IMG/VR virus record: IMGVR_UViG_3300021963_000137
Coordinates: 1-61,496 of that record
Reading direction: 5' to 3' (one strand)
Source of the DNA: a virus
Length of the DNA: 61,496 nucleotides
The notes below the pieces were generated by a model. The model did not search any database. It was given only the letters and a program-made list of their open reading frames with translations, and was not told where the DNA came from. This document shows, piece after piece, positions 436-58,212 of the stretch (position 1 is its first letter; each line of letters begins with the position of its first letter). Made by a program: the position numbers and the translations under genes.

Positions 436-3400
436 CTATGCGTGAGTCATCTGAGCAATACCATGTTTTATTACATTACCGTTTGTACGTAATGCTTTAA
501 AACCTTGATCTACTTTTCCTTCAAATTCATTTGCAAAAATCTTAAACATATTTTCTGCACCACCTAATTGTTGGTAAGATTCAATCATATTAAATAAGTC
601 TCTAAATTGTGAACCAGATACTGTTAGATTAGGTATACCATCAATCCAACCTGCTTTCTTAGCTTTATCTAATAATTGATTGTTCTTTGCTTTAAGATCT
701 TCCCAACTTTTGATTGAATCTTTTGATCTATTTTTAATATACGCTTCATACTCTGGACTATTATTAGTCTTCTTATTTAAGTCTTCAAAGAAAGCCCCTA
801 ATGCAGGGAAATCTCCTTTAGTACCTATACCTACGTCTGATGCACCAGCTGTTCTTCTAAACACTTCGTCTTTAGCTTTAATGTAAGCATTCTCTAATTG
901 TTTAGCAAACTTTTTAATTTCAGGTATTGCCTGAGGAATTGCTACGTTATTATAAGTATTACGATAAAGATGCATTGTATCCATTGTTGTGATTAATGAA
1001 TCATGAACAGTAGCTACTGGTAAAGGAATTTTTCTATCCGCATTTAAATCTAACATCATTAGCTTAAGCAAGTCAGCATCAGTAGATTGAATAGGCATAA
1101 CACCTAATAACCTAGACAATGCAGAGCCAAGAGCATTTTCAAACAAATCAAATTTATTTTTGGCTTTGTTATAGAATGATTGATTAGGTTTACCAGCAGC
1201 AGCATTGTACATTCTTCTTGCAGCTTGTACTTCAACAATACCTTCAGGAGCTAAATAAGTATTTGTTTCAATACCTCTATCTACAGTAGTATATGGTTGT
1301 CCTTCAGGAGTCATACCCGTTCCTTCTATATCTCTGAATTGATCAGGAATAAAACCTAAGTCAACAGAAGAATATACAGTGTCATCACCCGTAATACCTT
1401 TTAAAATAGGTATTGAGTTAATAACAGCAAACATACGACCAACCTTTTTAAGCATTCTAGTAAAGCTAGGGTCAATTACTTTTCTTAGAGTTGCATCTAA
1501 TGCGTTAGCTAAATCTTGAGCTGCTTCCGTTGAACTATTGTAATTGGGTAAAACATATTCAGCAAATACAGAATTATATTCTTGAGAATTTTCTAAGAAA
1601 GATAATACATGATCAAAGAACATTCCAGAATCTTTACCATAAGAATTCTGCATTAAAGGTGCCTTAAATAAATCAGTTGCTAATTTTTCATTGACTGCAT
1701 TGCTAAAGAAATTTTTCCAACCATCAAGTCTATCTTTGTTATCAACAATTATATTAGATAAATTATCACCAATAATACTTAAAGCATAGCCACGCATATC
1801 AGATAAGTTAGGGTTATAAGAACCTAATCTAATTGCAACTGTTGGTTTACCTGCATACAAAGATTGAATAAAGATACCATTTTGGTTTCCATCATCATAG
1901 TTTAAAGCACTAAGCTTAATAAAACGATTAGCCATTGCTGGATCTATTGCTGCCATACCTAATTGAGCAAAGTCATCATAAAGATTTTGATGTGACTGGG
2001 CTTCACCTCTAGGCATATTAGCAAGTAGGTTAACAATGTTTGATCCTTCAGCTACATTACCTGATAACCAATCATTATATTCTTTACCTAACATACCTAA
2101 ATGTTTACCAATCTCAGGTGTATACATTCTAATTAATTGTATCTCAGGTTGTTTAACAATATCTTTATTGAGTACAGTTGGGTCACCACTATAACTATAG
2201 TAATTAACTACAGCACATTCCATAAGACCAAGAGCAGTTCTTTCATCAGGAGTTAATGCCATTAAAGCTTTGTTACGGGCTTTACCTGACTTGCTAAATA
2301 TACCCATTGCTTTGTCTTGTAAGTTTTTAATTTTTACAGGATCAAAGAAATGATTAGCGTAAGTTAAACCTTGAATACCAAAGTTAAGCATCTCACGAGT
2401 AGCATTTTTAGACGCTAGTATATCAGTTCCAGCATTAGTTCTGAAAAATCGTTGGTTAGCCATTGAATGAGAGTAACCTGTATACACTACACCTTTAATC
2501 TTCTGAGCATTTGCTAAATCATATTCCATAAATTGAATAGCATTATTTATAGTAGTTTTTGCATGTTGATTTTGTAACTCAACAAATTTAGCTCTAGATA
2601 CTGGGTCATTATTATTATAGTCACTAGGGGGTTTAACTCTTTGTTTAAGCTTATTGTAGTCTGATAAAGATACTTTATGACGTTTAGCAAATGGACTTGA
2701 AGAATAGAAGCCTTCTGGACCATCTACCATATTTTTTTTAATATCTTCTAATTGAATACTAGTAGACAACATGGCTTTTGGTAGGAAAATTTCACCGATA
2801 GAACTAAATATATCTTTAACTGTTTCAGCTACAGGTTGTTTAGCACCTTCTATAAATAAAGAATTCTTTGTACCTTGTGAACCAGGCTTAATAAAATTAG
2901 AACCAGATATTTGTGGTACCTTAGAAGGTAAAGATCTACGTTCATCACCAGCTAATGCAGCAGACATATAGCTTAATTCAGCTGCTAAATCTTTCATTTC
3001 TTTAGAAGAACCATACACAATATTATTATCTTTATCTAACATAGGCAGGTGACGATGTTGAGCAATCTCTGCTTCAACTTTAGCTTCTGCTAATTGTCTT
3101 ACTGCTTGAGCAGGTATATTCATACCTAAGTTAGATAAGGCATTGTGCATTGAAGCAATAGTAGAGTTAACCAAATTAGTTTTTGGTTGGGCATCCATAA
3201 GATTACCGTTTTTGTCTCTTACTTCAGCAACATCTTCAAACGGATCTGTCTTAATACCATTTTTAAATAATCGTGTTTGCTCAGTAGCTCGTGCATGCGC
3301 AATACCTAACACTGTAGAGATTGGTCTGGCATATTCTAAAGGAATATTATTAGTATTTAAAATTTCTAAACCAGCAGGAACACCATAGTACCCTTCAGCA

Positions 3401-4050
3401 GTACTTCTAATAACAGCTTCAGGGCTAAACAAATCAGCAGCAGTAGCATCTGACACCATGCTTAATGCAGGTGCTGCACTATCAGCCCATTGTTTAATAA
3501 TACTATCATCCATACCCATAAATTGAGAAGTACCAGCTGGCATAGATTCTGCTGAAGATACTTCTGCTCTTGCCCTAAGAATAGCTTGACCTGCCTCTAC
3601 TGGATCTTCAGTCATTAAGGCAGGAGCCATATTAGGTCTGGTAGATAAGTCAACTTCTTGTTGTTGACCATACTCAGCCATAGTAATAGGCTGAGTCATA
3701 TACTCACCAGTCTGAGGGTCAAACTGAGGCATACCCTGTTCATCTTCTACTAGGCTAAGTCTTTCTCGACCAGCAAGAGATGATTGAGTAGCCTGAGCTA
3801 GGTCTTCAGGAGTTGATTGTGCAGATAACCTATCTATATTAACTGGACCAGCAATACCCCCAGCGGGTAGGGGTACTACAGGAATAGGCTGTGGATTATA
3901 TACATCCATAGCTTGTTTAACTGCTTCTGTCCCAGGTATTTCTACCTGAGGTGCAGCACCAGTACCAAAGGCTTGGTTAGAGAATGCTTGCAATTGCTCT
4001 GCACTTAAAGGTGCTTTGCCTTGCGTATTTACATTTACATTAATTGCCAT
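436..4050 (-). CDS. Virion-type single-subunit RNA polymerase, 1204 aa
   Basis: Last gene of the structural arm, directly abutting the 1433-aa ejection protein, with SD AAGGA before the ATG. The sequence shows the single-subunit RNA polymerase motifs in order. There is a QR pair at 533-534 in the place of the T/DxxGR motif. Motif A is DGNQNGI with Asp720 (T7 DGSCSGI, D537). Motif B is K796 with Y804-G805 eight residues on, the exact T7 K631/Y639 and N4 K670/Y678 spacing. An STDADLL stretch at 989-995 matches the T7 HSQDGSHL region. Motif C is VHDS with H1016-D1017. The Arg four residues before the motif B Lys is Thr792. About 500 N-terminal and 190 C-terminal residues flank the core. By N4 analogy it would be packaged and ejected to transcribe early genes. 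It is far shorter than N4 vRNAP (about 3500 aa). Packaging is inferred from gene position only. Confidence 0.85.
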   Translation of the reverse strand: MAINVNVNTQGKAPLSAEQLQAFSNQAFGTGAAPQVEIPGTEAVKQAMDVYNPQPIPVVPLPAGGIAGPVNIDRLSAQSTPEDLAQATQSSLAGRERLSLVEDEQGMPQFDPQTGEYMTQPITMAEYGQQQEVDLSTRPNMAPALMTEDPVEAGQAILRARAEVSSAESMPAGTSQFMGMDDSIIKQWADSAAPALSMVSDATAADLFSPEAVIRSTAEGYYGVPAGLEILNTNNIPLEYARPISTVLGIAHARATEQTRLFKNGIKTDPFEDVAEVRDKNGNLMDAQPKTNLVNSTIASMHNALSNLGMNIPAQAVRQLAEAKVEAEIAQHRHLPMLDKDNNIVYGSSKEMKDLAAELSYMSAALAGDERRSLPSKVPQISGSNFIKPGSQGTKNSLFIEGAKQPVAETVKDIFSSIGEIFLPKAMLSTSIQLEDIKKNMVDGPEGFYSSSPFAKRHKVSLSDYNKLKQRVKPPSDYNNNDPVSRAKFVELQNQHAKTTINNAIQFMEYDLANAQKIKGVVYTGYSHSMANQRFFRTNAGTDILASKNATREMLNFGIQGLTYANHFFDPVKIKNLQDKAMGIFSKSGKARNKALMALTPDERTALGLMECAVVNYYSYSGDPTVLNKDIVKQPEIQLIRMYTPEIGKHLGMLGKEYNDWLSGNVAEGSNIVNLLANMPRGEAQSHQNLYDDFAQLGMAAIDPAMANRFIKLSALNYDDGNQNGIFIQSLYAGKPTVAIRLGSYNPNLSDMRGYALSIIGDNLSNIIVDNKDRLDGWKNFFSNAVNEKLATDLFKAPLMQNSYGKDSGMFFDHVLSFLENSQEYNSVFAEYVLPNYNSSTEAAQDLANALDATLRKVIDPSFTRMLKKVGRMFAVINSIPILKGITGDDTVYSSVDLGFIPDQFRDIEGTGMTPEGQPYTTVDRGIETNTYLAPEGIVEVQAARRMYNAAAGKPNQSFYNKAKNKFDLFENALGSALSRLLGVMPIQSTDADLLKLMMLDLNADRKIPLPVATVHDSLITTMDTMHLYRNTYNNVAIPQAIPEIKKFAKQLENAYIKAKDEVFRRTAGASDVGIGTKGDFPALGAFFEDLNKKTNNSPEYEAYIKNRSKDSIKSWEDLKAKNNQLLDKAKKAGWIDGIPNLTVSGSQFRDLFNMIESYQQLGGAENMFKIFANEFEGKVDQGFKALRTNGNVIKHGIAQMTHA

Positions 4051-7000
4051 TTATTTTCCTTTAAAAGCATTTACAAGTTCTTCTGCCGTATAGTTACTTA
4101 CTACAGGGAAACTACCAATAACAGGCATAGCTCTCATTATCTTTTTAGCGCCCTTCATTTCTTTTCCTTCAGCTATATTGTATGCACCTTCAATAGGCTT
4201 AGCTACCCATGATACAACAGGTGAAGCACCCTTAGCTTTATCTACAGCCCATTCTAAAGGCTTCTCCGTAAATTTAGCACTACTAAATTCAATAGTAGGT
4301 GATATAGCTTCAGTTATCTTTTCTGCCTGACCAATTAAACCTGATGAATTTAAAATACGTTGAGCTTTCTTTGCTCTACTTTTTACATAAGGGCTATCTT
4401 CACCATAAGATAATTGATCTTTAAACATATTAACAAAAGCACTCATAATTAATGTCATACCCATAGTAGCAAAAGCATCATACCTCATACCAACACTACC
4501 ATTAAGGATGTGTTGCTTATATAGTCTGGGTAGTAGAACTGCTGTAGCTGTACCCATAAACTTTTGCATAGTGGTAACCATTTTAAACCTTGGATCATTA
4601 TAAATCTTTGGTGTGTTAAATGGTTGTGGATTAACAATACGAGAATCAACAAAATTAATTAATGCAGTATAAATATTATCTTGTATAGCTTCATATATAG
4701 GAGCATTTTGTTCTGTATTTAAAAATCCACCTTCAAAAGGAGACATATTAAACTGACTTCCCATAACATCTATTGCATTAAGCATATGAGGTACATTTAA
4801 ACCATACTGCTGTAATTGAATTAAAGCTTGTTGTTGTTCTACAGTTAAACCTTGCCCAGTAGCAAATGCAACATCACGAATAGCAGGGTCAACTCCACTA
4901 AGTGTGTTAAGTTGGGTCATCATAATATCACCAGCAACACTAAGAACAGCCATACGGTTAGCATCTGTCTGCGCTCTTAAAGAAATAGCAGAAACAAACA
5001 CACCCATAATCTTACGTAGTTTGTTAGTATCAGTACCACCAAAGTCATATTTGTTAGATGCATCAAAGCCAGCTTCATGAAAACCTAATCTACTAAAAGT
5101 TTTTCTATTGTAATATCTTTCATGTAGATTATCTATTTCTTTTTGAATTGCATCAAGAGATGCTTGAGAAGCATTAGGTGCATTTAATTTAGAATTTAAC
5201 TCATCTAATCTTTCCTGTAAACTTACATCAGGTATTTGTCTTAAATGCTTAATACCAAATAATGAGGCAGCAAATGATGCACCCTTAGCCATATCAGTAG
5301 CATATTCAGTAGCATATTCTTGTGCATAGGTAGAAAATTGTTTTCCTAATAATTTAGCAGGAGTACCTAAGCTTGCTAAGGTTGCTTCAGCTTGAGAAGA
5401 AATAGCTGCTTTAGATAATGAAGATAACAATGCTGCTGTAACTAAATAATTTTGTAAAGAAGATATAAAAGGACTTTCAATATTATTGTAGTCGTTATTA
5501 GTAATATCATACCATGCTCTTACTTCTGTTGTTGCAGCTTTAAAAGCTTTTTCATCAAACACTCCATTAGAGTCATTAAATTCACCTGCATCTTTGGCAG
5601 CTAATAAAAGCTTACCAAGGATATTACCATCTTTTCCAAGATAAGTTGCATGCATCACTTGATGAGCTGTTCTTTCTTTCATATGCTCAATACTATCAAG
5701 GATATTACTATGAAATATATGTTGCAAATTAGGATTAGTAAAGAAACCATATTGGGATAAATAGTCTACTGCAGCACTTGCTTTTGTTCTATTAGAGCTA
5801 TTAAGGTTATTAACAGCAGTAGTAGCTTCTGATCTTGTTGCTCCACTATTAACCATTTCATTTACAATAAGTGGTTTATTATTATTAAGCTTAGGAACAT
5901 CAATACGAGATGATTGAAATAAAGCATTTTCATCTAGTAAATGATTAAATGGTAACCCAGCATCAATAGCAGATTGTGCCATTGATTTTCTAGTATTATC
6001 TAATTTTTCTTTCCAATTTTGAAGAATAACATTTTGTTCTGTATTAAGTGGAAGTTGTAAACCCTGAGACCAATAATTGTTATAAGCCTCTTTTACCATT
6101 TCATTAACAGACTGTTTGTTAACACCAAAACCCATTATACCAGTTAACTTAGAAGCTAAATCGTATGCTCCACCATCAGACCATTTACCCATAAGCTTTT
6201 GTTGAAATACAGAAGCAGAGTCTCCTGGTAATATACCAAAACCTCCCATTATAGCTTTAAGGTAGGCTGAATTATATTTAAAGTTACCATTAGAATCTGT
6301 AATACTTGGGATAGCAGTATGGCTTAGTTGTCTCCACAAAGATAATGGATCAGAAATTGTTTGCTTAATACCTTCAAACCAACCTTTGTTTGTAGGTAAA
6401 TTAGTTAAAGAGGTATCAGGATGATTTGAGGGTTGAACAGCAGTTTGTCGAGCTAATTGAGTAATATCAACATGACCACCATTTTGAGTTGCTAACCGTT
6501 CTTGATTATCAGCTTGAAATGCTTGTGAATCTCCAACAGCTTTATCATAAAGTCTTTGAGCGTCTACAGCTGAATGCCATCCAGCCATATCAGTTACGCC
6601 TCTTGCTCCATGAAAACCAGCACCCATAACAGCACCACCAACAAAGGCATCTTCTAACTGGTCTTTATAATCTAAATTATATTTATAATTACGATTAAAT
6701 TGACCTGATTGACCTAGCATTTGAAGCTCTTGTTGTAATAACTCAGTACCACCTTCACCACCAGCAGCTATAGTAGCTCTTCCAGTAGCTTTAGCAGCAC
6801 CTTCCATAGATAACAATTGCCTTGTAGCAAATTCTTTTCCAAAGCCTGTGAATGCTAATATCTCTTGTTTAGTAGCTTCTTGTAAAATCTTTTCAGCTTC
6901 TACTCTAGTTGCTGCCTTACCATTTTGAATCATAGCATTAATAACTTCTTCTTTACCTGTAATAGTAAATAAATTAGCACCTAATTTACCAGATAAAAAA

Positions 7001-8352
7001 TCAAGACCTATTCTATCTAATGTACCCGAACCAACACCAGCAGCAATAGCTAATGGTACATTCTTTTTGTCATCAGGTTGGTCAGCATAAAATTGTCCTG
7101 TATAAAGAAAAGAACCAGGTACTGTAGATAAAGCTAAACCTAAAGACGAACCACCAGAGGCATATGCAGCACCCATTGTAATAATCATTTGAGGTAATGT
7201 ACCTGCAAACAAATTACCTGTGTATGTTAATGTATCTTTGGCAGTATTCCACCAACCTGAATCAGTATTAATATCTCTAAATGAAGATAATGTTGCAGGT
7301 AAATCTGCTTGAGTCATTTTAATACCATTGACATGAGCCTTAGCATTGTCTTTAAGTTCATCCCAACCAGTCTTTTCACCAACCATTTCTACGTTACCCC
7401 AAAAGCCTTTGGATATGTCTTTAAGAGCACTGTATAACACTGTACCTTGTTGATTATAAGCTTGGTTCATTATAGTTCTGTCATCATGACGAAACTGTAC
7501 ACCACCTACTATATCAGGCAAATAGGAAGCATAAAACATTTGTTGTTGAGCTGCTTCTTTTTGTTTTAATAATTTAGCTTTAATTTCAGGAGGTATTTGT
7601 TGTCCACCATTTGTTGTGTAGGACATAGCTCCTTCAAAACCTACTGCATTAAAGTCAGGTACCATTTCAGGTTTACCTTCACTAGCTAGTATAGCATCAA
7701 TCTTTTTAATAGTATCTCTGGCATTATTAATACCTTTAATACCTGTACTGTTTTTATATGCAGCATATTGTTCTTCGTTAAAAGCATTTACCTTAGGAAC
7801 ATACTGACGTCTTCCCGCCTCAGCAAACTCCTTGTCCCTACGCTCATTTTCTTTAACTATTCCTGCTAATATAGGGTCTTTTTTAGCTCTTTCAGGAAAA
7901 GCTTTTAAGACAGTTTGCATGTTATAGTACTGAGCAGCAGACTCATCATCAGTAAATCTATTAGGTTCTACTGCACCTATTTTTGTTAAAAAGTTACCAG
8001 CACTTTCACCAGTACTAGGATTAATAACCTTAGCTACTTCACGATTATAACTGGATTTACCAGTAGGTTGTATATCAGTAAATCCAGCTTGATTAAGTAT
8101 CTTAGGAATTTGTGGTGCTACGCCTTGCTCCTGAGGAGGTATAAATATACCTTCATACCTATGACCAACCTCAGGCGCATTGTACCCTTCAATACGATAA
8201 GCTTTATTATTTACTTTAATAGTATCAGGATCAACCCATTGTTGAGTACCTTTTACTTGTTTGTTATTAACAGTTAAAGCAGAGCCTGAAGAAGGGGCTA
8301 TAGATGCTTTATCAGCGAGTACATCATCAACATAATCATCTAACGATTTCAT
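4051..8352 (-). CDS. Giant ejected internal virion protein with nuclease-like N-terminus, 1433 aa
   Basis: The second-largest protein; in T7-like order it occupies the place of the inner-core proteins that form the DNA-ejection conduit. Residues 40-125 look like a staphylococcal-nuclease (TNase) fold: DPDTIKV, then YRIEG with Arg53, APE with Glu61, and Arg104 in YNREVAK. These match the Arg-Glu-Arg catalytic triad pattern. Hydrophobic stretches occur near residues 385-420, about 1020 and about 1340 and could insert in membranes. No lytic transglycosylase motif was recognised. It is flanked tightly by the virion RNA polymerase and the 1031-aa protein. Ejection role is inferred from size, position and composition. 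Confidence 0.7.
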   Translation of the reverse strand: MKSLDDYVDDVLADKASIAPSSGSALTVNNKQVKGTQQWVDPDTIKVNNKAYRIEGYNAPEVGHRYEGIFIPPQEQGVAPQIPKILNQAGFTDIQPTGKSSYNREVAKVINPSTGESAGNFLTKIGAVEPNRFTDDESAAQYYNMQTVLKAFPERAKKDPILAGIVKENERRDKEFAEAGRRQYVPKVNAFNEEQYAAYKNSTGIKGINNARDTIKKIDAILASEGKPEMVPDFNAVGFEGAMSYTTNGGQQIPPEIKAKLLKQKEAAQQQMFYASYLPDIVGGVQFRHDDRTIMNQAYNQQGTVLYSALKDISKGFWGNVEMVGEKTGWDELKDNAKAHVNGIKMTQADLPATLSSFRDINTDSGWWNTAKDTLTYTGNLFAGTLPQMIITMGAAYASGGSSLGLALSTVPGSFLYTGQFYADQPDDKKNVPLAIAAGVGSGTLDRIGLDFLSGKLGANLFTITGKEEVINAMIQNGKAATRVEAEKILQEATKQEILAFTGFGKEFATRQLLSMEGAAKATGRATIAAGGEGGTELLQQELQMLGQSGQFNRNYKYNLDYKDQLEDAFVGGAVMGAGFHGARGVTDMAGWHSAVDAQRLYDKAVGDSQAFQADNQERLATQNGGHVDITQLARQTAVQPSNHPDTSLTNLPTNKGWFEGIKQTISDPLSLWRQLSHTAIPSITDSNGNFKYNSAYLKAIMGGFGILPGDSASVFQQKLMGKWSDGGAYDLASKLTGIMGFGVNKQSVNEMVKEAYNNYWSQGLQLPLNTEQNVILQNWKEKLDNTRKSMAQSAIDAGLPFNHLLDENALFQSSRIDVPKLNNNKPLIVNEMVNSGATRSEATTAVNNLNSSNRTKASAAVDYLSQYGFFTNPNLQHIFHSNILDSIEHMKERTAHQVMHATYLGKDGNILGKLLLAAKDAGEFNDSNGVFDEKAFKAATTEVRAWYDITNNDYNNIESPFISSLQNYLVTAALLSSLSKAAISSQAEATLASLGTPAKLLGKQFSTYAQEYATEYATDMAKGASFAASLFGIKHLRQIPDVSLQERLDELNSKLNAPNASQASLDAIQKEIDNLHERYYNRKTFSRLGFHEAGFDASNKYDFGGTDTNKLRKIMGVFVSAISLRAQTDANRMAVLSVAGDIMMTQLNTLSGVDPAIRDVAFATGQGLTVEQQQALIQLQQYGLNVPHMLNAIDVMGSQFNMSPFEGGFLNTEQNAPIYEAIQDNIYTALINFVDSRIVNPQPFNTPKIYNDPRFKMVTTMQKFMGTATAVLLPRLYKQHILNGSVGMRYDAFATMGMTLIMSAFVNMFKDQLSYGEDSPYVKSRAKKAQRILNSSGLIGQAEKITEAISPTIEFSSAKFTEKPLEWAVDKAKGASPVVSWVAKPIEGAYNIAEGKEMKGAKKIMRAMPVIGSFPVVSNYTAEELVNAFKGK

Positions 8353-8369
8353 AATAACCCCTTTTCAGT

Positions 8370-11300
8370 TTATTTTTTCTTAGGTTCAGTATAGGATTTC
8401 CATTTAGGAAGACCACTTGTTTCTGCTATAGCCCAATCTTGGAACGTGCTATAGTTCTCCTGAGTATAACCCGATTTTTCCATTTTAGTTCTAACATCTG
8501 CTGGTATATTCTTATAAGCCCTTTTTAAAGCTTCATATGCAGCTTGATCATCTATCACTACATTATCTTTATTATATTTATTTTGAATAACTCTATCTAA
8601 AGCATTAGTAAATTCAGCCATAGATTTTCCAGATAAATTTTTACCATTAGGCTTCCACAAATCTTTGTCAGAGGGACTTGTAGTTTTAGCAATATTACTT
8701 CTAATAACTTTCCTAATACCGTCAGGATCTTGAAGTCCACTTTCTACAAGTTGAGGAATAGCTAAATTCATAACATCTGCTTTGCTATCAATAGTTAGTC
8801 CTCCAGGAATACTAGAAAGTATTCTATTAGAATTATTAGCTACTGCTTTAGCATTAAAAGGTTTTCCATCTTTATCTTTAGCACCTTCAGGTATTAAAGC
8901 TTCAACCTTTCTAGCAACAGTATCTTCTTCATATCGATGAGCTTCAATACTTTTAACAGCGTTAAATGGAATTAACCTACCATCCATAGTCTGATACTGA
9001 CCTTTATGATATTGAACTGGCATAAGTTCACCATCTACAAGCATCATATCGGGTTTCTTAGGATACTTACCTTTACCACCACCTTCGCCATCATCATCAC
9101 TACCACTACCATTTTTACGACCATACCCAGGAGGATAATGCTGAACATTAGCTGCTAGATATGTAGTAACAGCACGCATATTATTCATCCAGTCTTCAGG
9201 TGTTTCAAAATTACCTTTTAACATACTCATAGCTTGACTTCTTACTGCAGGAGATACATCCATAGCTAAATACTTTTGTAAATTATCACTAAGATGCTCT
9301 TGATCTTTTCTGGCAGCAGCAGATTTTTCGTAAGTCCATTTGTTATCTTCTTTTAACTGTTGGAATTTACGGTATTGTATTTCGCTTTCAGCTCTAGCTT
9401 CTTCTTTTCTTTCTGCTAAAGATAATCTTTTCTCATTAAGTTTCCTATCAGCTTCTGCTTTCTTATCGGCTTTAGCTTGTCCAGCTAATGTAATAGCAGT
9501 ACGCATATCTTCACGTTCAGCTTGAGCAGCTAATTGCTTATCTTGACGCTTGTTAGCCTCTTCTTGAGCCTGTCTACGTAAAGAAGTTTCAAATGCTTGT
9601 CTACCACCATAAGATAATGCACGAGCAGTGTCATAACCCATAGCACGACCTGCTACAGTAGCTACAGCTAATCGAGCAACTTCCTGATCATTTAAACCTA
9701 AGACACTCTTAATACCTTTGTATGTAAATAAATCTTTAAGCGAATCAATAGCAGACTCATCGTCTTTATTAGCTATAGCTTTATCAACAGCTTTTTGAGA
9801 ACCTTTTAATTGTTTAATCCAATATTCAGGTCTGGTATCATCATCTTCTGGTTTTAATGGAGGAACAATTTTACCTTCATTAGCATCTATTATTGCTTGC
9901 ATCTCAGCATTAAATGCTTGTTTAGCATTTGGATCAGGGATGAATGCAACTGGCTCTACAGGCATGTTGATGGTACTATTGTTACCACCAACAGACTTAG
10001 CTACAACAGGAGGAGGTACAGGAAAACGATCTTTACCTTCAACAACTACCTTAGGTTTAGCAGCAAGCATTGGTAAAGGTTCAATTACTTCCATACCTAC
10101 ATTTTTAAAAGGTCTTTCTGGGATGTCAAATTCTGAACTAACACTACCATTGATTTTTGCTTGTACATCTTTAAGCTTCATGTCTGCAGTTACATCTGGA
10201 TAAGCAGAACGAGGAACAGCATCTTCTATTTTATCTTTTGTTGTAGAAATATTAACTAGATTTTCAGGGATTACCTTTTGTTGATAATCTATTACTGGGC
10301 CAGCAATTACTGTTGGTTCAAGTATAGGGCTAGACTCAGGTACATCTTCAACACCATTTTCATAATGATAACTAGCTGAACTACCTCTATTAAAGTCATA
10401 TACTCTTTCAGTACCATCTTCAAAAGAAGAACCTGGTACATCAGAATGCTCATATGCTAATGATGGTACAGGTACTTGAATGGTACCTTCATTATAGTTC
10501 ATTAATTGAGGTACTGCAGAAGTGCCGTCAGCATATAACGTATCAGTATATCCTACAGGTATTTTAACACCTAGTCTATCAGAAAAAGGTGATTGACCAG
10601 CATTAACTCGCATGTCTCTATAAGCAGCAGCTTTATTAGCTATTGCATCATTCATTTGACCTTGAGTAATTAATTGAACTTCTTTGTTACTTAATGTAGG
10701 AACTAAACTAGGGTATTGACCCTTATTATCATCAAGAGTATACTCAGTCATTGCACTAGGTCTAATAGATATTTCTTGATTATAAACAGGTATTTCACCC
10801 ATATAACCTTTTCCTTTAGGCATAGGCATCTCATATGATATTGAACCTTGAGTAGGATTATCATTCTGATAACGGAAGCCGTCAGGAGCTAACCCTTTAC
10901 CTTTAACTTTTTTAGTACCATCTTTGTATCCAGCAGCCTGTTGTACTCTACTAGGGATAACATCTGAGTTAACAATGTTAATAGAGCCATCACGAAATTC
11001 TAAAAAACCTTTTTTAGTTTTGTTAGCTTTTCTACCTTCTTGAACCATACGTTTAATAATGGGTTTATTCTTAGGGTCTTGTGCGGCAGGTTCAGGGATA
11101 ACAGCTTCGCCAGGAGTTAGCATAGCAGGTACTGTATCTGTATTTTGTTTAGCAGCTTTCCTAGCTTTAGCAGCATCTTCTGCTTGATATGGCAACATGT
11201 GCTGACCACGTTTAAATAGTTCTGTCCCTGCTAATGGGTTAGGTGATTTAACTTTTAATGGAGCACCTAAGGTACCCATCTTATATTTGTGAACGTCTTC

Positions 11301-11465
11301 TTTATGACCTAATGTTTGTCCAGCCTTACCAGCAGCTTCTACAAGTTTAATTTCATGTAGTTGTTGTTTACGGGCTTCCTCCCGTTCCATCTTAGCTGTT
11401 TCTCTGGCTTCTTGAGAAGCAAACTTTAAGTACTCTCTGTGTTGTTTAGCAGATAGTGGTCCCAT
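8370..11465 (-). CDS. Large internal virion / ejection protein, 1031 aa
   Basis: Large hydrophilic protein between the small core proteins and the 1433-aa protein, so probably part of the ejectosome. The N-terminus is a charged helix. Around residue 115 it has VPAMLTPGEAVIP, a motif often seen in large phage internal or tape-like proteins. Roughly residues 660-760 are an Ala/Lys/Glu/Arg-rich coiled coil, and near 830 there is a short Gly/Asp-rich linker. No catalytic motif was recognised. It starts one base after the stop of the gene before it. Confidence 0.65.
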   Translation of the reverse strand: MGPLSAKQHREYLKFASQEARETAKMEREEARKQQLHEIKLVEAAGKAGQTLGHKEDVHKYKMGTLGAPLKVKSPNPLAGTELFKRGQHMLPYQAEDAAKARKAAKQNTDTVPAMLTPGEAVIPEPAAQDPKNKPIIKRMVQEGRKANKTKKGFLEFRDGSINIVNSDVIPSRVQQAAGYKDGTKKVKGKGLAPDGFRYQNDNPTQGSISYEMPMPKGKGYMGEIPVYNQEISIRPSAMTEYTLDDNKGQYPSLVPTLSNKEVQLITQGQMNDAIANKAAAYRDMRVNAGQSPFSDRLGVKIPVGYTDTLYADGTSAVPQLMNYNEGTIQVPVPSLAYEHSDVPGSSFEDGTERVYDFNRGSSASYHYENGVEDVPESSPILEPTVIAGPVIDYQQKVIPENLVNISTTKDKIEDAVPRSAYPDVTADMKLKDVQAKINGSVSSEFDIPERPFKNVGMEVIEPLPMLAAKPKVVVEGKDRFPVPPPVVAKSVGGNNSTINMPVEPVAFIPDPNAKQAFNAEMQAIIDANEGKIVPPLKPEDDDTRPEYWIKQLKGSQKAVDKAIANKDDESAIDSLKDLFTYKGIKSVLGLNDQEVARLAVATVAGRAMGYDTARALSYGGRQAFETSLRRQAQEEANKRQDKQLAAQAEREDMRTAITLAGQAKADKKAEADRKLNEKRLSLAERKEEARAESEIQYRKFQQLKEDNKWTYEKSAAARKDQEHLSDNLQKYLAMDVSPAVRSQAMSMLKGNFETPEDWMNNMRAVTTYLAANVQHYPPGYGRKNGSGSDDDGEGGGKGKYPKKPDMMLVDGELMPVQYHKGQYQTMDGRLIPFNAVKSIEAHRYEEDTVARKVEALIPEGAKDKDGKPFNAKAVANNSNRILSSIPGGLTIDSKADVMNLAIPQLVESGLQDPDGIRKVIRSNIAKTTSPSDKDLWKPNGKNLSGKSMAEFTNALDRVIQNKYNKDNVVIDDQAAYEALKRAYKNIPADVRTKMEKSGYTQENYSTFQDWAIAETSGLPKWKSYTEPKKK

Positions 11466-16291: not shown

Positions 16292-17833
16292 TTATCTCCT
16301 ATCTATTTGTTTAGAATCAAGTGACATAGTAGCTAAACGCCAATAGCCAGTGGTTGTTATTCTGTAATTCATTACACGACCATATACTCTTGGATCAACT
16401 TTGTAACCCTGAGATTTTTCATTGTTAGGTAAAAATGTAAATGTATCTTTTAAATCAGGATCATCTATTGATAAATCAATATTATCTACATAATTGTTTT
16501 GCCCTATTACTCTTATAGTAATACTTGCATTACTAGGTACTTGATCAAATATAGGATACACAGAACTAATCATTGTACTTCCAGTAACATCCCCTGTGTT
16601 TAATTTTTTCTTTTCAATATAAGATGTATATGCGACTAATGCTGAACCATTCCACATTAAATAATTGCTATCTGTTACTAATGTTTGTGTTGTATTAGTA
16701 CACATGTATATTACTTCAGTTCCATATTGAAATGTAGTAGATACATTAGCAGGACCAGTAAATGCGTAAGTTAAAGATGGTAATGTTCTTTTAGACCATG
16801 TGTTATTTTTGTAATTAAACACTAAAGCTTCATTACATACTGTAGAAGAGCCTTTAGGGTAGTTAATCCATATTTCTTTATAAAAAGAATTTTTAACTAG
16901 ATGTACTTTATTAATATAATTTTTATTTAAATTATTAAAGAAATATTTTTTAATTCTAAAGTCAGCAATAGACTCAATAGCGCCTGAACCATTATGTGTG
17001 TATATATCATTACGATCAACAACAAAATGTTTACCATCAACTTCAATAACACAATCAGTACTTAAAATACCATATGACTTACTATAAGGAGATACTCTAG
17101 TATTAGCACCAATAGTAAGTATGTTAATACAATCAGAAGAATATATGTACATATTTCCTCTTAGCTCACACATATCTAAGATAGGAGATGTAGAGCTTAT
17201 TTCAAATTCATCTGCTGTGTCTGTTGTAAAACCTGGTTGCCATACAGAAGGTACTGAGCCTGTAGCAGCTTGAACTGATACTCTAACAGTGCTAGGTGCA
17301 TAAGTTAAAATACCACTTTGATTTAATGTTAAGTTAGCTGCAACTAATGAGTAACCTAATGATCTAATAACTTTAGCTGTTACTGTTAAACCTGATACAT
17401 AATTCCATCCTGGTAATGGTTGAAAGGTATTATCTGCAGAAAGACTGCCATATAAACAATATAATGGAGTAGTAGCACCATTGTTAAGAATAACGGCATA
17501 ACCACCATTAAATAAAGTACCTTGCCAATCACTATTTGTATATGATCCAGACCCACTAGAAAACATAGATGAAGTATTTCCAGCAGAATCTACTCTAACT
17601 ATATTTCCATTTTTAGCAAATATATTGTACCCTGTGTCTGGTCTTCTCCAATGAATTCCATAGTCAGGTGCAATAGCAACAGTTCTGGAAGTGGTTTCCC
17701 CAGTAGTTGCTTGTACAGACTCGTCATCAAATCTTATATTTAGTACGTCTGTAAAAGTGTTCATTGGTAGGATCATAGGAGGCATATCTGCGTTCCACCC
17801 ACCCCTACCAAATTGTTCTATAGGTGTAGCCAT
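16292..17833 (-). CDS. Tail nozzle / tubular-type structural protein, 513 aa
   Basis: Opens with IEQFGRGGWNADMPPMILP and a DVLNIRF stretch, then repeated beta blades (GWNYVSG, NMYIYSSDCINILTIG, GKHFVVDRNDIYTHNG, YKEIWINYPKG, NNTWSKRTLP). This is the pattern of beta-propeller tail-nozzle proteins of podoviruses (T7 gp12-like role). SD AAGGAAG before the ATG; a phage-type promoter lies 20-37 bases upstream, making it the first gene of a late unit that includes the fibres and ejection proteins. Confidence 0.65.
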   Translation of the reverse strand: MATPIEQFGRGGWNADMPPMILPMNTFTDVLNIRFDDESVQATTGETTSRTVAIAPDYGIHWRRPDTGYNIFAKNGNIVRVDSAGNTSSMFSSGSGSYTNSDWQGTLFNGGYAVILNNGATTPLYCLYGSLSADNTFQPLPGWNYVSGLTVTAKVIRSLGYSLVAANLTLNQSGILTYAPSTVRVSVQAATGSVPSVWQPGFTTDTADEFEISSTSPILDMCELRGNMYIYSSDCINILTIGANTRVSPYSKSYGILSTDCVIEVDGKHFVVDRNDIYTHNGSGAIESIADFRIKKYFFNNLNKNYINKVHLVKNSFYKEIWINYPKGSSTVCNEALVFNYKNNTWSKRTLPSLTYAFTGPANVSTTFQYGTEVIYMCTNTTQTLVTDSNYLMWNGSALVAYTSYIEKKKLNTGDVTGSTMISSVYPIFDQVPSNASITIRVIGQNNYVDNIDLSIDDPDLKDTFTFLPNNEKSQGYKVDPRVYGRVMNYRITTTGYWRLATMSLDSKQIDRR

Positions 17834-17852: not shown

Positions 17853-17870
17853 GTTTCCTATTAGGGGTCT
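17853..17870 (-). promoter_or_regulatory. Phage RNA polymerase promoter, late unit
   Basis: Minus-strand sequence AGACCCCTAATAGGAAAC, matching the repeated element GTCCCCTAATAGG. It lies in the 38-base gap between the endolysin stop and the 513-aa tail gene and points at that gene. By analogy with T7 (CACTATAGGGA) transcription would start at the GG, giving a leader of about 20 nt that includes the SD. Confidence 0.65.
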
Positions 17871-17871
17871 T

Positions 17872-18336
17872 CTACGGTTGTAAGCCTTTAAGGTAAACTG
17901 TTTTACCATTTTGTTTTACAGCAGTTAAACACTCACATTTAAGATTATTAGGGTCATATGATACGTGTACCCATCCTGAGTCAGGTATCCCTTGTGTATA
18001 AAATTCAAGAATTAATTGTGTAAATTTAAAGTTGTCTTTAATATATTGAGCTAGGTCACCATTAGCTACACCTACAACCTCGATATCCGCAGCCATACCT
18101 TTACAATGGTCTGATGTCTTTGACCCGCCTACAGCAGCATTAGATTCAGGTGAACGATAAGCACTATTAACAGTTACTTTACCATAGTGGTCTCTCACAG
18201 GCTGTAATACCTTTTCACATAATACTTTTAAATTATTTAATGCAGTATCATCAGGAGTATTATCTAAGCCCAGTCTTGTGGCTGTTTCTGATTTAGTTAA
18301 TTCTTTTAAAGAAAAGTTAGTGCTTAACTGGGTCAT
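17872..18336 (-). CDS. Endolysin, M15-type peptidase, 154 aa
   Basis: Peptidase M15-type L-alanyl-D-glutamate or D-Ala endopeptidase that cuts peptidoglycan cross-links at lysis. The zinc motif is visible: H77 (SKTSDHCKG), D84 (MAADIEV), and H124 in GWVHVSYD, with the usual VNSAYRSPESN substrate strand before it. Length fits the single-domain family; no signal peptide, so a holin is needed. Its start lies inside the end of the i-spanin gene (20-base overlap), completing the lysis cassette. Confidence 0.88.
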   Translation of the reverse strand: MTQLSTNFSLKELTKSETATRLGLDNTPDDTALNNLKVLCEKVLQPVRDHYGKVTVNSAYRSPESNAAVGGSKTSDHCKGMAADIEVVGVANGDLAQYIKDNFKFTQLILEFYTQGIPDSGWVHVSYDPNNLKCECLTAVKQNGKTVYLKGLQP

Positions 18337-35256: not shown

Positions 35257-35271
35257 GGGGTGTAGTTATAG

Positions 35272-35289
35272 TTTCTCTATTAGGGGACT
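35272..35289 (-). promoter_or_regulatory. Phage RNA polymerase promoter for the structural arm
   Basis: Minus strand AGTCCCCTAATAGAGAAA, a member of the GTCCCCTAATAGG family (GAG in place of GGG/GGA). It points at the terminase gene 16 bases away and would open the whole morphogenesis arm. Confidence 0.65.
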
Positions 35290-35292
35290 ACT

Positions 35293-35505
35293 CTTTATAC
35301 TTTTTATTTATAGCCCCTTAGTCTTTGTGTGTGAAAAAGAATCAGGGGTTTGTTGTTCTCCCCCTCCTGTGTCGTGTGACCCCCCTGTCTCGTGGTGGTC
35401 GGTCGTGCTGCGGTGTCGGGTCGTTCCTGCCTCTCTTCTTCTGTCGGTGGTGCTGTGGCGCTGGTGCTGTCGACTTCCTTTGTTAGCGCTGTCTTGGAGT
35501 TCATT
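35293..35505. other. Non-coding divergence region with A-free tract
   Basis: Between the divergent arms. Bases 35380-35472 (93 bases) contain no A on the plus strand; 35401-35460 is about 65 % G+C in an otherwise AT-rich genome. Open frames crossing it on both strands (Thr-rich minus, Val/Leu/Cys-rich plus) look like composition artefacts. Candidate roles: packaging or terminus site, structured RNA, or early promoter region. Confidence 0.5.
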
Positions 35506-35661
35506 ATGCGTTCTATCCTCTTGTTCGTTTGTCTTCGCCGTGGTTTTGGTTTGTCCTTCTCTACTGCCTGTGGTCACTTGCTTAATGCTTGGGGTACTGC
35601 TCAGTGGTACAGTGACATGTCTACTGTTGACCTGTTCCTGTTAGCTACTCGTAAGTCTTAA
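35506..35661 (+). CDS. First early gene, small basic protein, 51 aa
   Basis: Start at an ATG with SD GGAG six bases upstream. Starts MRSILLFVCLRRGFGLSF, hydrophobic then basic, and ends STVDLFLLATRKS. Codons end heavily in T. Unrecognised; the position, first gene of the plus-strand arm, suggests early host takeover. Confidence 0.5.
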   Translation: MRSILLFVCLRRGFGLSFSTACGHLLNAWGTAQWYSDMSTVDLFLLATRKS

Positions 35662-35681
35662 GGGCTTTCTCGATTGGCTCC

Positions 35682-35712
35682 TTGTGGGGTCTTTCGAGAG
35701 CGTCTTGCTCTG
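35682..35712 (+). promoter_or_regulatory. Hairpin element A (AGAGC type)
   Basis: AGAGC-GTCTT-GCTCT stem-loop (35697-35711) 15 bases before the next start codon, with an upstream long-range TCTCGA/TCGAGA pairing. First of three similar elements (also 35906-35921 and 36193-36208). Confidence 0.45.
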
Positions 35713-35726
35713 TTTGGGAGGTTGGT

Positions 35727-35870
35727 ATGTATCTCGGTGACTTGCTTCGTAAGAAGCTTGCTGAGCTGCCACCTGTGGATGAGGCGGCACTTGATGCTTA
35801 CCTTGACGAAGTAGAAGAAGAATTCTGCTTTGTTTGTGGTAATGAGTGTTGCAATCATCCTCAGGATTAA
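35727..35870 (+). CDS. Tiny early protein with Cys/His cluster, 47 aa
   Basis: SD GGGAGG five bases before ATG. An acidic helix (VDEAALDAYLDEVEEEF) is followed by CFVCGNECCNHPQD, a CxxC..CC.H cluster that could bind zinc. Early, small, acidic plus zinc motif fits a host-protein inhibitor, but that is inference. Confidence 0.6.
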   Translation: MYLGDLLRKKLAELPPVDEAALDAYLDEVEEEFCFVCGNECCNHPQD

Positions 35871-35881
35871 GAGGCTGCCTG

Positions 35882-35921
35882 TAGCATCCTGTTAGGGTGC
35901 TATGGAGAGCGATCTTGCTCT
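35882..35921 (+). promoter_or_regulatory. Tandem hairpin element B
   Basis: Two adjacent stem-loops: TAGCA(T)CC..GG(G)TGCTA at 35882-35902 and AGAGC-GATCTT-GCTCT at 35906-35921, 19 bases before the next ATG. The second hairpin is identical to that in element C. Confidence 0.5.
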
Positions 35922-35940
35922 ATTCTAAAAGGGGTTTGTT

Positions 35941-36156
35941 ATGTCTTCTTCTTTTGTTGTCTACGCTGTGTCTGCTTCTGCTCCTCAGTGTGTTGTTGCT
36001 AGCTTTGATACTGTTGCTGAAGCTAATGCTGCTGCTTGGTTGGCTAACTCTATCGATAGTACTTGTGACTATCGTGTTGATGAGGTCTTGCTTGATGATT
36101 TGCTTTGTTCTGAGTGGAAGACCAAGGAGAGAATGTCAGGATACGAGTTACTTTAA
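35941..36156 (+). CDS. Small early protein, 71 aa
   Basis: SD AAGGGG. Ala/Ser-rich start, then SFDTVAEANAAAWLANSI and DYRVDEVLLDD; compact alpha/beta look. Codons are almost entirely T-ending. Not recognised. Confidence 0.55.
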   Translation: MSSSFVVYAVSASAPQCVVASFDTVAEANAAAWLANSIDSTCDYRVDEVLLDDLLCSEWKTKERMSGYELL

Positions 36157-36170
36157 TAAGATCTTTGCCT

Positions 36171-36208
36171 ATTGGGTATAACAACCCAATGGAGAGCGAT
36201 CTTGCTCT
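36171..36208 (+). promoter_or_regulatory. Tandem hairpin element C
   Basis: ATTGGGT-ATAACA-ACCCAAT (perfect 7-bp stem, 36171-36190), then AGAGC-GATCTT-GCTCT (36193-36208), followed 24 bases on by the next ATG with SD AAGGAG. Same architecture as element B. Confidence 0.5.
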
Positions 36209-36232
36209 TGTACATAACTCAAGGAGATTAAC

Positions 36233-36906: not shown

Positions 36907-36946
36907 CCTGTAAGACAGTCTTCACGGCTGTATAAAAGTGAGACCT

Positions 36947-36964
36947 CTTGGGGTAAGTACCAAG
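36947..36964 (+). promoter_or_regulatory. GGTAAGTA hairpin element E
   Basis: CTTGG-GGTAAGTA-CCAAG, 33 bases before the next start. Shares loop and the upstream GAGACC with element D, with a compensated stem. A second small hairpin (ACAG...CTGT) lies upstream near 36915-36931. Confidence 0.5.
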
Positions 36965-36997
36965 ATCACATAACACACTCAACACAAGGGGATAAAC

Positions 36998-39516: not shown

Positions 39517-39522
39517 ACTCTA

Positions 39523-39540
39523 GTTGTCCCCTAATAGGGA
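39523..39540 (+). promoter_or_regulatory. Phage RNA polymerase promoter at the candidate origin
   Basis: GTTGTCCCCTAATAGGGA, the best match to the family and ending like a T7 promoter (ATAGGGA). It points right into the AT-rich palindrome and then antisense through the 39643-40023 gene toward SSB. Confidence 0.7.
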
Positions 39541-40042: not shown

Positions 40043-40060
40043 GTTTCCTATTAGGGGACT
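40043..40060 (-). promoter_or_regulatory. Phage RNA polymerase promoter for the small-terminase gene
   Basis: Minus strand AGTCCCCTAATAGGAAAC, identical over the core to the 17853-17870 element. It is about 20 bases upstream of the preferred start codon, so the leader is short and contains the SD. Confidence 0.68.
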
Positions 40061-40088
40061 ACTCAATCTTTAATCCATAGGAACAATC

Positions 40089-47396: not shown

Positions 47397-47402
47397 ACCG
47401 CA

Positions 47403-47420
47403 GTTGTCCCCTAATAGGAG
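47403..47420 (+). promoter_or_regulatory. Phage RNA polymerase promoter before the replication genes
   Basis: GTTGTCCCCTAATAGGAG, five bases from the next ATG by its end, in the 29-base gap between the 85-aa gene and the 50-aa gene. Transcription from it would cover MazG-like, dCMP deaminase, DNA polymerase, helicase and RNA polymerase genes. The initiating GGAG would also serve as the SD. Confidence 0.68.
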
Positions 47421-53823: not shown

Positions 53824-56025
53824 ATGAATCCAGTACAATATCTATCTGAAAGAGTAGCCAAAGTCGTGGTCAACTCAGATAAGATTTATAATGAAGGTGC
53901 TCGACTATTAGCACATCATCCAACATGGGAATATGACTTAGAAAGGTTTGTAAATGAATCGTGGGACACACTCCTCCGCTACTGTATTCGCAACAAGAAT
54001 GCAACTCATAGCGCATCAGTTAAACTTACTTTTGCAAGTGACCTTATCGGAAAACGAATCGCAAGAGCTATTGGAACTGATGAAAGCAACATCAAATCAA
54101 CTCTCGCTCTTGGAGACATTCTACTCGAAACATTTCTCCAAGATAGTCTTATAGATATCTTCAGAGAGTATGATGGATTTAAAGCTCCATACATGGTGCG
54201 TATTGTCAACATGCCTGACAATATTAAGCCTACATTAATAGGTACTTCATTTGAACCTTTATTACCTATAGCTGGTCTATATAGTAACCTTACTAAAGAA
54301 CCATTCATTAAAGGATGGACTAACAGTAAGCTGTTTCATGAGTACTTAGATAAACCTTTTGTACGTGCATTAGAAACATTACGCCAACAACCTTGGGTAT
54401 TAAATCAAGGTGTGTTAGAAGGTATGAGAAACTATAAGCCAACTGAAATACTAAAGTTGGTTGATGATGATGGTGTATTATATGACTACAACATTCATTA
54501 TGAAAATTTAGAACTACCAAAGAAGCTTAAGCACCTAGATGGTACTTCTTTCCTTGGTAAGAAAGACCCTAAGCTACAACGTATGCTTAGTAAGTTCTTT
54601 GAATACAATCAAGTAGTAAAGAAAGCTGAATTGATTGGTGATAGATCATTCTATCAAGAAGTATCCTGTGACTATCGTGGTCGAGTATACTATGCTGAAT
54701 CCTTCTTAGAGTTTCAGGGTAGTGACTTGGCTCGTAGTCTCTTTTTATTCCAGAATAAAAAAGAAATGGATGATCGTGGTTACTTCTGGCTTAAGGTTCA
54801 TACAGCAGGATGCTATAATGAATCGTTTAATGTTAATAAATTACCACATTATTTTACTACTGACTATAAGACTTATTTAAAAGGAGAAGGTTTAGATACT
54901 ATCTCCCTTGATAAAATGACTCTTGAAGATAGAGCTATATGGGTAGATAATAATTTAATTAAATTAGCTAACATTGCTAATCAATATACTATAGATACAT
55001 CCGCTGAAAAGCCTTATAGTTTATTAGCTTGTTGTCTTGAAATTAAAAATTATATCCAAGCTAAATCTAAAGGTAAGAAGCATATGTCTGGTCTTCCTAT
55101 ACCTATTGATGGTAGTAATAATGGATGGCAGCATCTGGCAGCTATGTCTAGAGATACCCAAGCAGCTACCTTAGTATCATTAGTACCTACACCTATACAG
55201 AAAGACTTTTATGTAGCTGTGGCTAAAGAGCTAATTAACATTATGCCTGACTACTTTAAACAAAAGAATATGCCTATGAAAGATATCCGTAAAGGTATTG
55301 CTAAACGAGGTTCTATGACTCGTGCATACTCAGCAGGTAAACAACGTATTGCTAAGAATATGTATGATGACTGCCATGTAGAAGGATTTACTGTTAAATA
55401 TGGTATCACAGAAAAAGAATGTGGAGACTTAGCAGGTAACCTAATTAAGGCTATTAATGCAGTATGCTCTGGTCCATTAAAGACAACTAAGTTCTTACAA
55501 AAAATTGCTGAACATGAGCTTAACTCTGGTCGTAATCAACTATCATGGCATACACCTTCAGGATTCCCTGTAGTGTATAAAGCATTTCTTCAGCATGAAC
55601 GTAAACATAGAGGTACTATTAGAGGTATACCTGGAAACCCTAAAGGAAGGATTAGACATGTTATTAAAGTGGATGTACTCAATAAAGATACAGGTGAAAA
55701 AGTTCCTTGTAGACGCTCCTTTGCTTCTGGCATCAGCCCTAATCTCGTTCATAGTTACGATGCTGCTCATATGGCTAATGTTATCTCTATTTTTAATGGC
55801 AACTTTGGTGCTGTCCACGACAGCTTTAGTACTCATGCCAGTGAAGTGGATTTTCTTCAGGAAGTAACTAAGATGACCTTTGTAGCACAGTATGATATAG
55901 AAAACTTCTTTAGTAATCTTATGGATACATTAATGCTTAACAAAGATACATTCACTTACCCTCCACCAGAAGAAGGTACATTAGATTTAAAACAAGTCTA
56001 TGAATCTAAATACTTTTTCTGCTAG
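53824..56025 (+). CDS. Single-subunit RNA polymerase, T7/N4 RNAPII-type, 733 aa
   Basis: All catalytic motifs are present: DYRGR at 283-287, motif A DGSNNGWQH with D429, motif B K494 and Y502 (KRGSMTRAY), HSYDAAHM (644-650 region) and motif C VHDS with H665-D666. The DGSNNGWQH form is closer to N4 gp16 than to T7. At 733 aa it is shorter than T7 gp1 (883). SD AAAGG. It is the likely user of the GTCCCCTAATAGG promoters. A second, virion-type polymerase is at 436-4050. Confidence 0.93.
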   Translation: MNPVQYLSERVAKVVVNSDKIYNEGARLLAHHPTWEYDLERFVNESWDTLLRYCIRNKNATHSASVKLTFASDLIGKRIARAIGTDESNIKSTLALGDILLETFLQDSLIDIFREYDGFKAPYMVRIVNMPDNIKPTLIGTSFEPLLPIAGLYSNLTKEPFIKGWTNSKLFHEYLDKPFVRALETLRQQPWVLNQGVLEGMRNYKPTEILKLVDDDGVLYDYNIHYENLELPKKLKHLDGTSFLGKKDPKLQRMLSKFFEYNQVVKKAELIGDRSFYQEVSCDYRGRVYYAESFLEFQGSDLARSLFLFQNKKEMDDRGYFWLKVHTAGCYNESFNVNKLPHYFTTDYKTYLKGEGLDTISLDKMTLEDRAIWVDNNLIKLANIANQYTIDTSAEKPYSLLACCLEIKNYIQAKSKGKKHMSGLPIPIDGSNNGWQHLAAMSRDTQAATLVSLVPTPIQKDFYVAVAKELINIMPDYFKQKNMPMKDIRKGIAKRGSMTRAYSAGKQRIAKNMYDDCHVEGFTVKYGITEKECGDLAGNLIKAINAVCSGPLKTTKFLQKIAEHELNSGRNQLSWHTPSGFPVVYKAFLQHERKHRGTIRGIPGNPKGRIRHVIKVDVLNKDTGEKVPCRRSFASGISPNLVHSYDAAHMANVISIFNGNFGAVHDSFSTHASEVDFLQEVTKMTFVAQYDIENFFSNLMDTLMLNKDTFTYPPPEEGTLDLKQVYESKYFFC

Positions 56026-56042
56026 TTGTCCCCTAATACCGA
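56025..56042 (+). promoter_or_regulatory. Degenerate phage-type promoter before RNR
   Basis: GTTGTCCCCTAATACCGA, overlapping the RNA polymerase stop codon. Core matches but the initiating GG is CC, so it may be weak, inactive or start differently. It lies 21 bases before the RNR ATG. Confidence 0.45.
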
Positions 56043-57940: not shown

Positions 57941-58206
57941 ACTTATATAAATTTTATACTGATACATGTGTACCATGCAGACAAATGAATAATCGTATTA
58001 AAGATGTAGATTTTAATTTTGATTATGGTGTAGTATTAACTAATGTTAATGCTACTGAAAACACAGAGCTTAGAGACAAGTATGGGGTTAAGACTGTACC
58101 TACCTTTGTACTAGCCGATGATAAAGATAATATGATTCGTAAGATTAGTGGATCTATTTCTTTACCTGAGTTAGATACTTTTATTACAGGCACAGCCGTC
58201 CCCTAA
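57937..58206 (+). CDS. Thioredoxin/glutaredoxin-like protein, TTG start, 89 aa
   Basis: TTG start with strong SD GGAGG, overlapping the RNR stop by four bases. The fold begins at once (LYKFYTDTCVPCRQM), with CVPC active site and cis-Pro motif VKTVPTFVLAD. It probably re-reduces the RNR C-terminal cysteines; a role as polymerase processivity factor, as host thioredoxin plays in T7, is a further possibility. Confidence 0.85.
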   Translation: MNLYKFYTDTCVPCRQMNNRIKDVDFNFDYGVVLTNVNATENTELRDKYGVKTVPTFVLADDKDNMIRKISGSISLPELDTFITGTAVP

Positions 58207-58212
58207 TAGGGA
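58195..58212 (+). promoter_or_regulatory. Phage RNA polymerase promoter for tRNA genes
   Basis: GCCGTCCCCTAATAGGGA, overlapping the end of the thioredoxin gene; its end is four bases before the first tRNA. Transcription would start almost at the tRNA 5' end. Confidence 0.65.

Follow-up and report, generated by a model that had tools for sequence, protein, structure and literature searches.

An uncultured short-tailed phage whose genome is not of the N4 type seems to carry in its virion a T7-type RNA polymerase (RNAP) of its own, beside its ejection proteins. The phage is represented by IMG/VR record IMGVR_UViG_3300021963_000137, analysed over its full 61,496 nucleotides (the window), and the candidate is P0001, a protein of 1204 residues whose predicted fold places it in the superfamily of T7, mitochondrial and N4 single-subunit RNAPs. 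P0001 is probably an active enzyme that is packaged, delivered from the virion and used for early transcription, in a division of labour between two RNAPs like that of phage N4. An earlier note on this DNA had singled out the gene as a compact virion-position polymerase and had given its extent correctly; its strand, which is minus, had not been stated.

Active-site motifs, conservation and predicted fold

The motifs that the earlier note had read in P0001 all lie where it placed them: motif A is DGNQNG with D720, motif B is K796-APLMQNS-Y804-G and motif C is VHDS with H1016-D1017, with the segment STDADLL at 989-995. Two scans of IMG/VR recovered 32 P0001-related loci, about 27-97% identical. 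Conservation was read from an alignment of 29 sequences (28 rows of the P0001 family and gp33 of the cultured Roseobacter phage CRP-7), in which 27-28 rows cover each motif column. D720, Q723, R753 and Y804 are unchanged in 27 of 27 rows and Q988, D991, H1016 and D1017 in 28 of 28, and the K796 column holds Lys in 26 of 27 and Arg in one, CRP-7 gp33. Given this column conservation across relatives, the motif matches are beyond chance. The ratio of non-synonymous to synonymous substitution rates (dN/dS) lies at 0.08-0.15 in comparisons with three close relatives, and P0001 is under strong purifying selection.

An AlphaFold model of residues 101-1204, built with 28 sequences, reached a predicted local distance difference test score (pLDDT) of 86.4 and a predicted template-modelling score (pTM) of 0.85. 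Foldseek returned 71 PDB matches to it at E<=0.001, and all 50 that were listed are T7, mitochondrial or N4 single-subunit RNAPs, the best-ranked named match being yeast mitochondrial RNAP (7.3e-15), with T7 RNAP (3e2e) at E 2.6e-12 and a template-modelling (TM) score of 0.54 by target, and N4 virion RNAP (vRNAP) at 8.5e-11 and 1.1e-10. Matches in a viral structure library were likewise headed by DNA-directed RNA polymerases. In the model a strand ends with D720, the helix that holds K796 terminates at Y804, and H1016-D1017 is found where a beta-hairpin turns, following the QSTD helix, a placement that matches expectation for motifs A, B and C. The earlier note had staked its claim on a palm and fingers fold in such a comparison, and the claim survived it.

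Pfam gave no RNA_pol match to P0001; its sole signal on the family was a sub-threshold match to DNA_pol_A around motif C, which 7 of 28 members showed at E values up to 0.1 (best 0.0019). Taken at face value this match would make P0001 a relative of family A DNA polymerases, or the motif matches coincidental, readings to which we give almost no credence, since the listed PDB matches are RNA polymerases throughout, motif C is HDS and not HDE, motif A has the form DGxxxG, and the phage has a separate DNA polymerase A gene at 49060-50919. Shared palm ancestry accounts for the weak match.

Relationship to the T7 and N4 polymerases

Searched alone, P0001 found no match among PDB sequences, PHROGs or a phage collection, and the phage search missed CRP-7 gp33 (QBQ72826.1, 'hypothetical protein') as well. 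This nearest cultured relative was recovered, among the searches run, only by the family profile (E 2.1e-27, motifs in register). A family-profile search of bacterial and archaeal genome contigs returned no relative and so points to no host or prophage. Profile comparison by hhalign with T7-type RNAPs gave E 0.1, which is not significant, with all four motifs in register (P0001 family first: DGNQNG/DGSNNG, KAPLMQNSYG/KRGSMTRAYS, QSTDA/HSYDA, HDSLIT/HDSFST); in the T7-type set the sequences from 3 of 5 relatives, taken from the second RNAP described below, were short wrong-frame fragments that may have weakened the comparison. Against 12 N4-family sequences the best value was E 0.0047, from 81 columns that surround motif C, congruent in motifs and with no significant full-length match. 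P0001 is accordingly a single-subunit RNAP that has diverged deeply and that the tests run do not allow to be filed as an N4 vRNAP, and its lineage is most likely distinct from that enzyme.

P0001 could instead be a derived N4 (Schitoviridae) vRNAP that lost its terminal domains and diverged past sequence recognition, with no separate recruitment. Such a descent would keep the proposed function and so concerns origin only. It would account for the place of P0001 as last late gene after the ejection genes, as in the N4 order gp52-gp51-gp50, and for a motif A (DG--NG) and motif B (K-x-PL) that resemble those of N4; N4-family vRNAPs also vary in size, that of Alteromonas phage R22Y having 2083 residues (PMC11705849). 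However, N4 vRNAPs align with T7-type RNAPs at 1.5e-11 in the same kind of comparison that gave the short match above, Foldseek puts mitochondrial and T7 RNAPs above N4, and motif C is HDS as in T7, where N4 has FDG. We regard descent from N4 as possible, though well short of probable. The R22Y enzyme also bears on the size contrast drawn by the earlier note, in which the figure for P0001 was right and the roughly 3500 residues ascribed to N4-type enzymes are not universal.

P0001 in a fast-diverging late module

P0001 is a late gene directly after ejection-like genes, as in N4, the ejection role of these neighbours being a putative one. The next gene, P0002, adjoins P0001 in the relative loci that cover it, and the two proteins diverge in step: in nine relatives the identities of P0001/P0002 are 92/91, 49/43, 51/44, 37/34, 34/38, 34/38, 27/29, 43/39 and 34/37%, and in the same nine the capsid protein is 84-99%, the terminase 72-98% and the second RNAP 59-98% identical. 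Beyond the closest relative P0001 thus falls to 27-51% identity, and the third protein, P0003, is strongly divergent too. P0001 therefore behaves as a member of the late module and not of the transcription and replication module, and the ejection-protein position assigned to it by the earlier note holds in both synteny and co-divergence with P0002. As a side observation, the whole late-end module (436-11465) diverges far faster than the capsid, terminase and replication genes.

A gene in the late arm, whose encapsidation we infer, might also encode an RNAP that is made late and kept in the producing cell, unpackaged, for example as a late-stage transcriptase. We consider this distinctly unlikely, as a conventional RNAP is already present, with family-wide promoter-like sequences upstream of late genes, and P0001 diverges with P0002 and not with the replication and transcription genes.

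Two further observations concern P0002. Its N-terminus carries a conserved R-x-x-G-x-NAPE motif that resembles staphylococcal-nuclease-like domains, for which Pfam gives no call. One relative of P0002 matched a PHROG labelled 'virion RNA polymerase' (E 0.0003), but the match was traced to none of the seven members rescanned and was not used.

Genome layout and the second RNA polymerase

The ends of the contig overlap (1-2117 with 59379-61496, 96.5% identical), which gives a circular map of about 59.4 kb; the contig was probably assembled from a strain mixture. An open reading frame (ORF) of 552 residues at the right end was rejected as a second gene copy, being the same gene end met again through the overlap. 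From the terminase at 35.3 kb the late arm extends leftward; it also holds portal, scaffold, major capsid protein and SU10-type adaptor genes and ends with P0003, P0002 and P0001. The early and replication arm runs rightward, with DNA polymerase A, exonuclease, primase/helicase, a T7-type RNAP and ribonucleotide reductase.

This second RNAP is a single chain and a true member of the T7/Autographiviridae RNAP group, and both RNAPs are present in 9 of 9 near-complete relatives. The earlier note was right that the genome is not of the N4 type, as the SU10-type adaptor, the ribonucleotide reductase and the single-chain second RNAP attest; the second RNAP itself it had overlooked. The window also holds a nucleoside 2-deoxyribosyltransferase-like gene (43532-43966, plus strand; Pfam 6e-8), an endonuclease V-like PHROG match at 41728-42351, and tRNA-Met(cat) and tRNA-Arg(tct) genes (58217-58374, plus strand); a tRNA-Arg(TCT) is reported for CRP-7 too in the available part of its description (PMC6918029).

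Table 1. Features of the window discussed in the text.
Feature	Position	Strand	Basis or remark
P0001, candidate virion-position single-subunit RNAP, 1204 residues, ATG start	436..4050	-	motifs, conservation, predicted fold
P0002, ejection-like protein, 1433 residues	4051..8352	-	adjoins P0001 and co-diverges with it
P0003, large protein, 1031 residues, third of the fast-diverging late module	8370..11465	-	divergence
Promoter-like motif, weak copy, 3 mismatches	17859..17873	-	just upstream of structural gene 16292-17833
Promoter-like motif AGTAGTCCCCTAATA	35278..35292	-	upstream of terminase large subunit
Early leader	35310..35690	+	for most of its length nearly identical to closest complete relative
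Early hairpin class 1, AGAGC-GTCTT-GCTCT	35697..35711	+	
Early hairpin class 1, AGAGC-GATCTT-GCTCT	35906..35921	+	
Early hairpin class 1, AGAGC-GATCTT-GCTCT	36193..36208	+	
Early two-hairpin element class 2, GAGACC ... GGTAAGTA loop	36541..36593	+	
Early two-hairpin element class 2	36915..36969	+	
Promoter-like motif AGTTGTCCCCTAATA, first rightward copy	39522..39536	+	
Promoter-like motif	40049..40063	-	upstream of lone leftward gene 39643-40038
Promoter-like motif	47402..47416	+	upstream of rightward gene
Second RNAP, conventional T7-type, 733 residues	53824..56025	+	Pfam RNA_pol 3.4e-55
Promoter-like motif	56024..56038	+	just after second RNAP gene, upstream of ribonucleotide reductase start
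Promoter-like motif, 2 mismatches	58194..58208	+	upstream of tRNA-Met and tRNA-Arg
Repeat appearance of C-terminal half of P0001, ORF of 552 residues	59815..61473	-	contig-end overlap, 98% protein identity

Promoter-like motifs and early hairpins

A T7-promoter-like motif, AGTTGTCCCCTAATA(GGG), occurs in seven copies within three mismatches, against a mean of 2.5 in shuffled sequences, of which 1 in 100 reaches seven. Every one of the seven copies shares its strand with the gene next downstream, and six lie within about 30 nucleotides of the start of a protein or tRNA gene. Relatives carry either GTCCCCTAATAGG or GGTACCTAATAGG, that is, GTCCCC- or GGTACC-type sequence before TAATAGG, as if specificity had shifted together with the RNAP. 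Read from sequence, the simplest view of the motif is that it serves the second RNAP as promoter; no such repeat was found in CRP-7. The lone leftward gene inside the rightward arm has a promoter-like motif of its own. With the first rightward copy at 39522, the early arm is without the motif for its initial ~4 kb, and a scan of 35200-37690, in itself weak evidence, found no sigma-70-like match on the plus strand.

The start of the early arm carries hairpins of two classes on the sense strand, which in several relatives lie just upstream of early genes and show compensatory changes. Class 1 has the consensus A[G/C]AGC-G(N)TCTT-GCT[C/G]T and class 2 consists of two hairpins with a GGTANGTA loop. 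Genome-wide hairpin counts across ten genomes were 11 and 11, where shuffled sequences averaged close to 2. In class 2 pairing reaches 93.6% and covariation 0.426, as against a covariation of 0.132 in shuffles; its covariance model has strong matches at early-arm sites only, and it may represent a structured element, RNA or DNA, that is new. Rfam gave no match to the early elements, and a single weak Rfam match to a long non-coding RNA at 41038 was taken as chance. Loops are of 5-8 nucleotides except in one relative, G006, whose 5-bp stems and 3-nucleotide loops have the shape of N4 vRNAP promoters, a likeness clear in that genome only. In the early leader the near-identity with the closest complete relative runs over a GC-richer stretch, and later early genes differ more.

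A model for transcription by two phage polymerases

According to the model that we favour, P0001 would be a late product, like the head and ejection proteins, that is packed into the capsid and reaches the host together with the genome. With phage protein synthesis in that cell not yet begun, it would there transcribe the first of the rightward early genes, and it might also help to draw in the DNA. Early or early-middle transcription would then yield the second, cytoplasmic RNAP, which would recognise GTCCCCTAATAGG-type promoters ahead of the middle and late genes. A more specific version, in which CRP-7-like podoviruses recruited a second T7-type virion RNAP lineage independently, the covarying early hairpins are its start sites and the cytoplasmic RNAP works on CTAATAGG promoters, strikes us as rather doubtful.

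Several observations weigh against a packaged and active P0001. The Foldseek TM-scores are moderate (0.4-0.54), with long-chain root-mean-square deviations of 10-17 Å. The low-confidence, all-helical model of P0002 (pLDDT 60) matches no known ejection protein, so that the case for an ejection module is built on position and size, on co-divergence and on weak PHROG links; and as ejection proteins may evolve fast generally, co-divergence supports membership of a module and is not proof of packaging. For the early hairpins, a role in the leader RNA or as processing sites is as possible as one as promoters. No virion proteomics for this phage group was found in the literature.

The surroundings of the active site also differ from those of T7 RNAP. 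The substitution of Thr for the Arg that precedes motif B, remarked on in the earlier note, is real: the equivalent of T7 R627 is position 792, a Thr, in a column of S, K, A, N, T and G in which no member has Arg, and a D/T-x-x-G-R pentapeptide was not seen in P0001 by eye, where a structural equivalent is possible. The invariant R753 is one candidate to stand in for R627, which is a guess. Together with the Arg for K796 and the DARQSN for DGNQNG of CRP-7 gp33, such differences would suit an ejection protein in which the polymerase fold has been retained for another job, be it priming, pulling DNA without transcription or a structural part. That P0001 is such a protein is nevertheless very improbable, since both catalytic Asp residues and the motif B Tyr are invariant and purifying selection is strong. 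On balance we retain the packaged early polymerase as the likely reading.

Comparison with known systems

CRP-7 gp33 resembles P0001 in length (1235 against 1204 residues) and in its place after gp34 and gp35, of which gp34 is a homologue of P0002 (E 3e-12); a T7-type RNAP, gp30, with 33% identity to the second RNAP, is likewise encoded by CRP-7. The pairwise similarity of gp33 and P0001 is weak, however, at ~24% in the C-terminal part, and gp33 departs from P0001 at motif A and K796. The available text of the CRP-7 paper discusses only the T7-type RNAP (ORF30) as an RNA polymerase and not gp33 (PMC6918029).

With N4 gp50, P0001 shares the single-subunit fold, the late position after ejection proteins, and the DG--NG and K-x7-YG motifs, and in both phages a separate second phage RNAP serves, or here would serve, later genes. 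Yet gp50 has about 3500 residues, with large N- and C-terminal domains, and N4 RNAPII is of two chains where the second RNAP here is of one. T7 RNAP has the fold, the motif order and the motif C HDS of P0001, but is made in the cell and not packaged, and P0001 lacks its R627 and D/T-x-x-G-R motif.

Pairs of virion and non-virion RNAPs have precedents in N4 (PMC4496689) and P23-45 (PMC10770324). Phage P23-45 resembles our proposal in having, outside N4, a vRNAP fused to the tail tape together with a non-virion RNAP; its enzymes, however, are two-barrel RNAPs related to cellular ones, of a fold unrelated to that of P0001 (PMC10770324). A putative vRNAP of StenR_269 is likewise a proposed large virion-position RNAP outside the Schitoviridae, for which the available part of the report cites size, absence of cysteine, helical content and low-confidence models, without motif or fold evidence (PMC10747016). 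The literature searched yielded virion RNAPs of the N4 type (among them that of R22Y and a distant representative from the proposed Poorviridae), of the multisubunit jumbo-phage types and of the P23-45 type. We found no P0001-like virion RNAP outside these types in the open-licence literature, and prior description elsewhere is possible.

Implications

In the literature searched, packaged single-chain T7-type RNAPs are reported solely from N4-like phages or their close derivatives, and P0001 has a third of the size of N4 vRNAP, hardly any similarity to it in sequence and an otherwise unrelated genome around it. If P0001 is what we propose, the virion-RNAP strategy would be broader than N4, with a compact form in the unrelated CRP-7-type podoviruses, a group reported to be ubiquitous in marine viromes. 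It would also explain a conserved 'hypothetical' protein and provide a small virion RNAP for biochemistry, and with the relative CRP-7 in culture the central claim can be tested directly. The fast-diverging late-end module and the well-conserved second RNAP form a natural pair for the study of promoter specificity.

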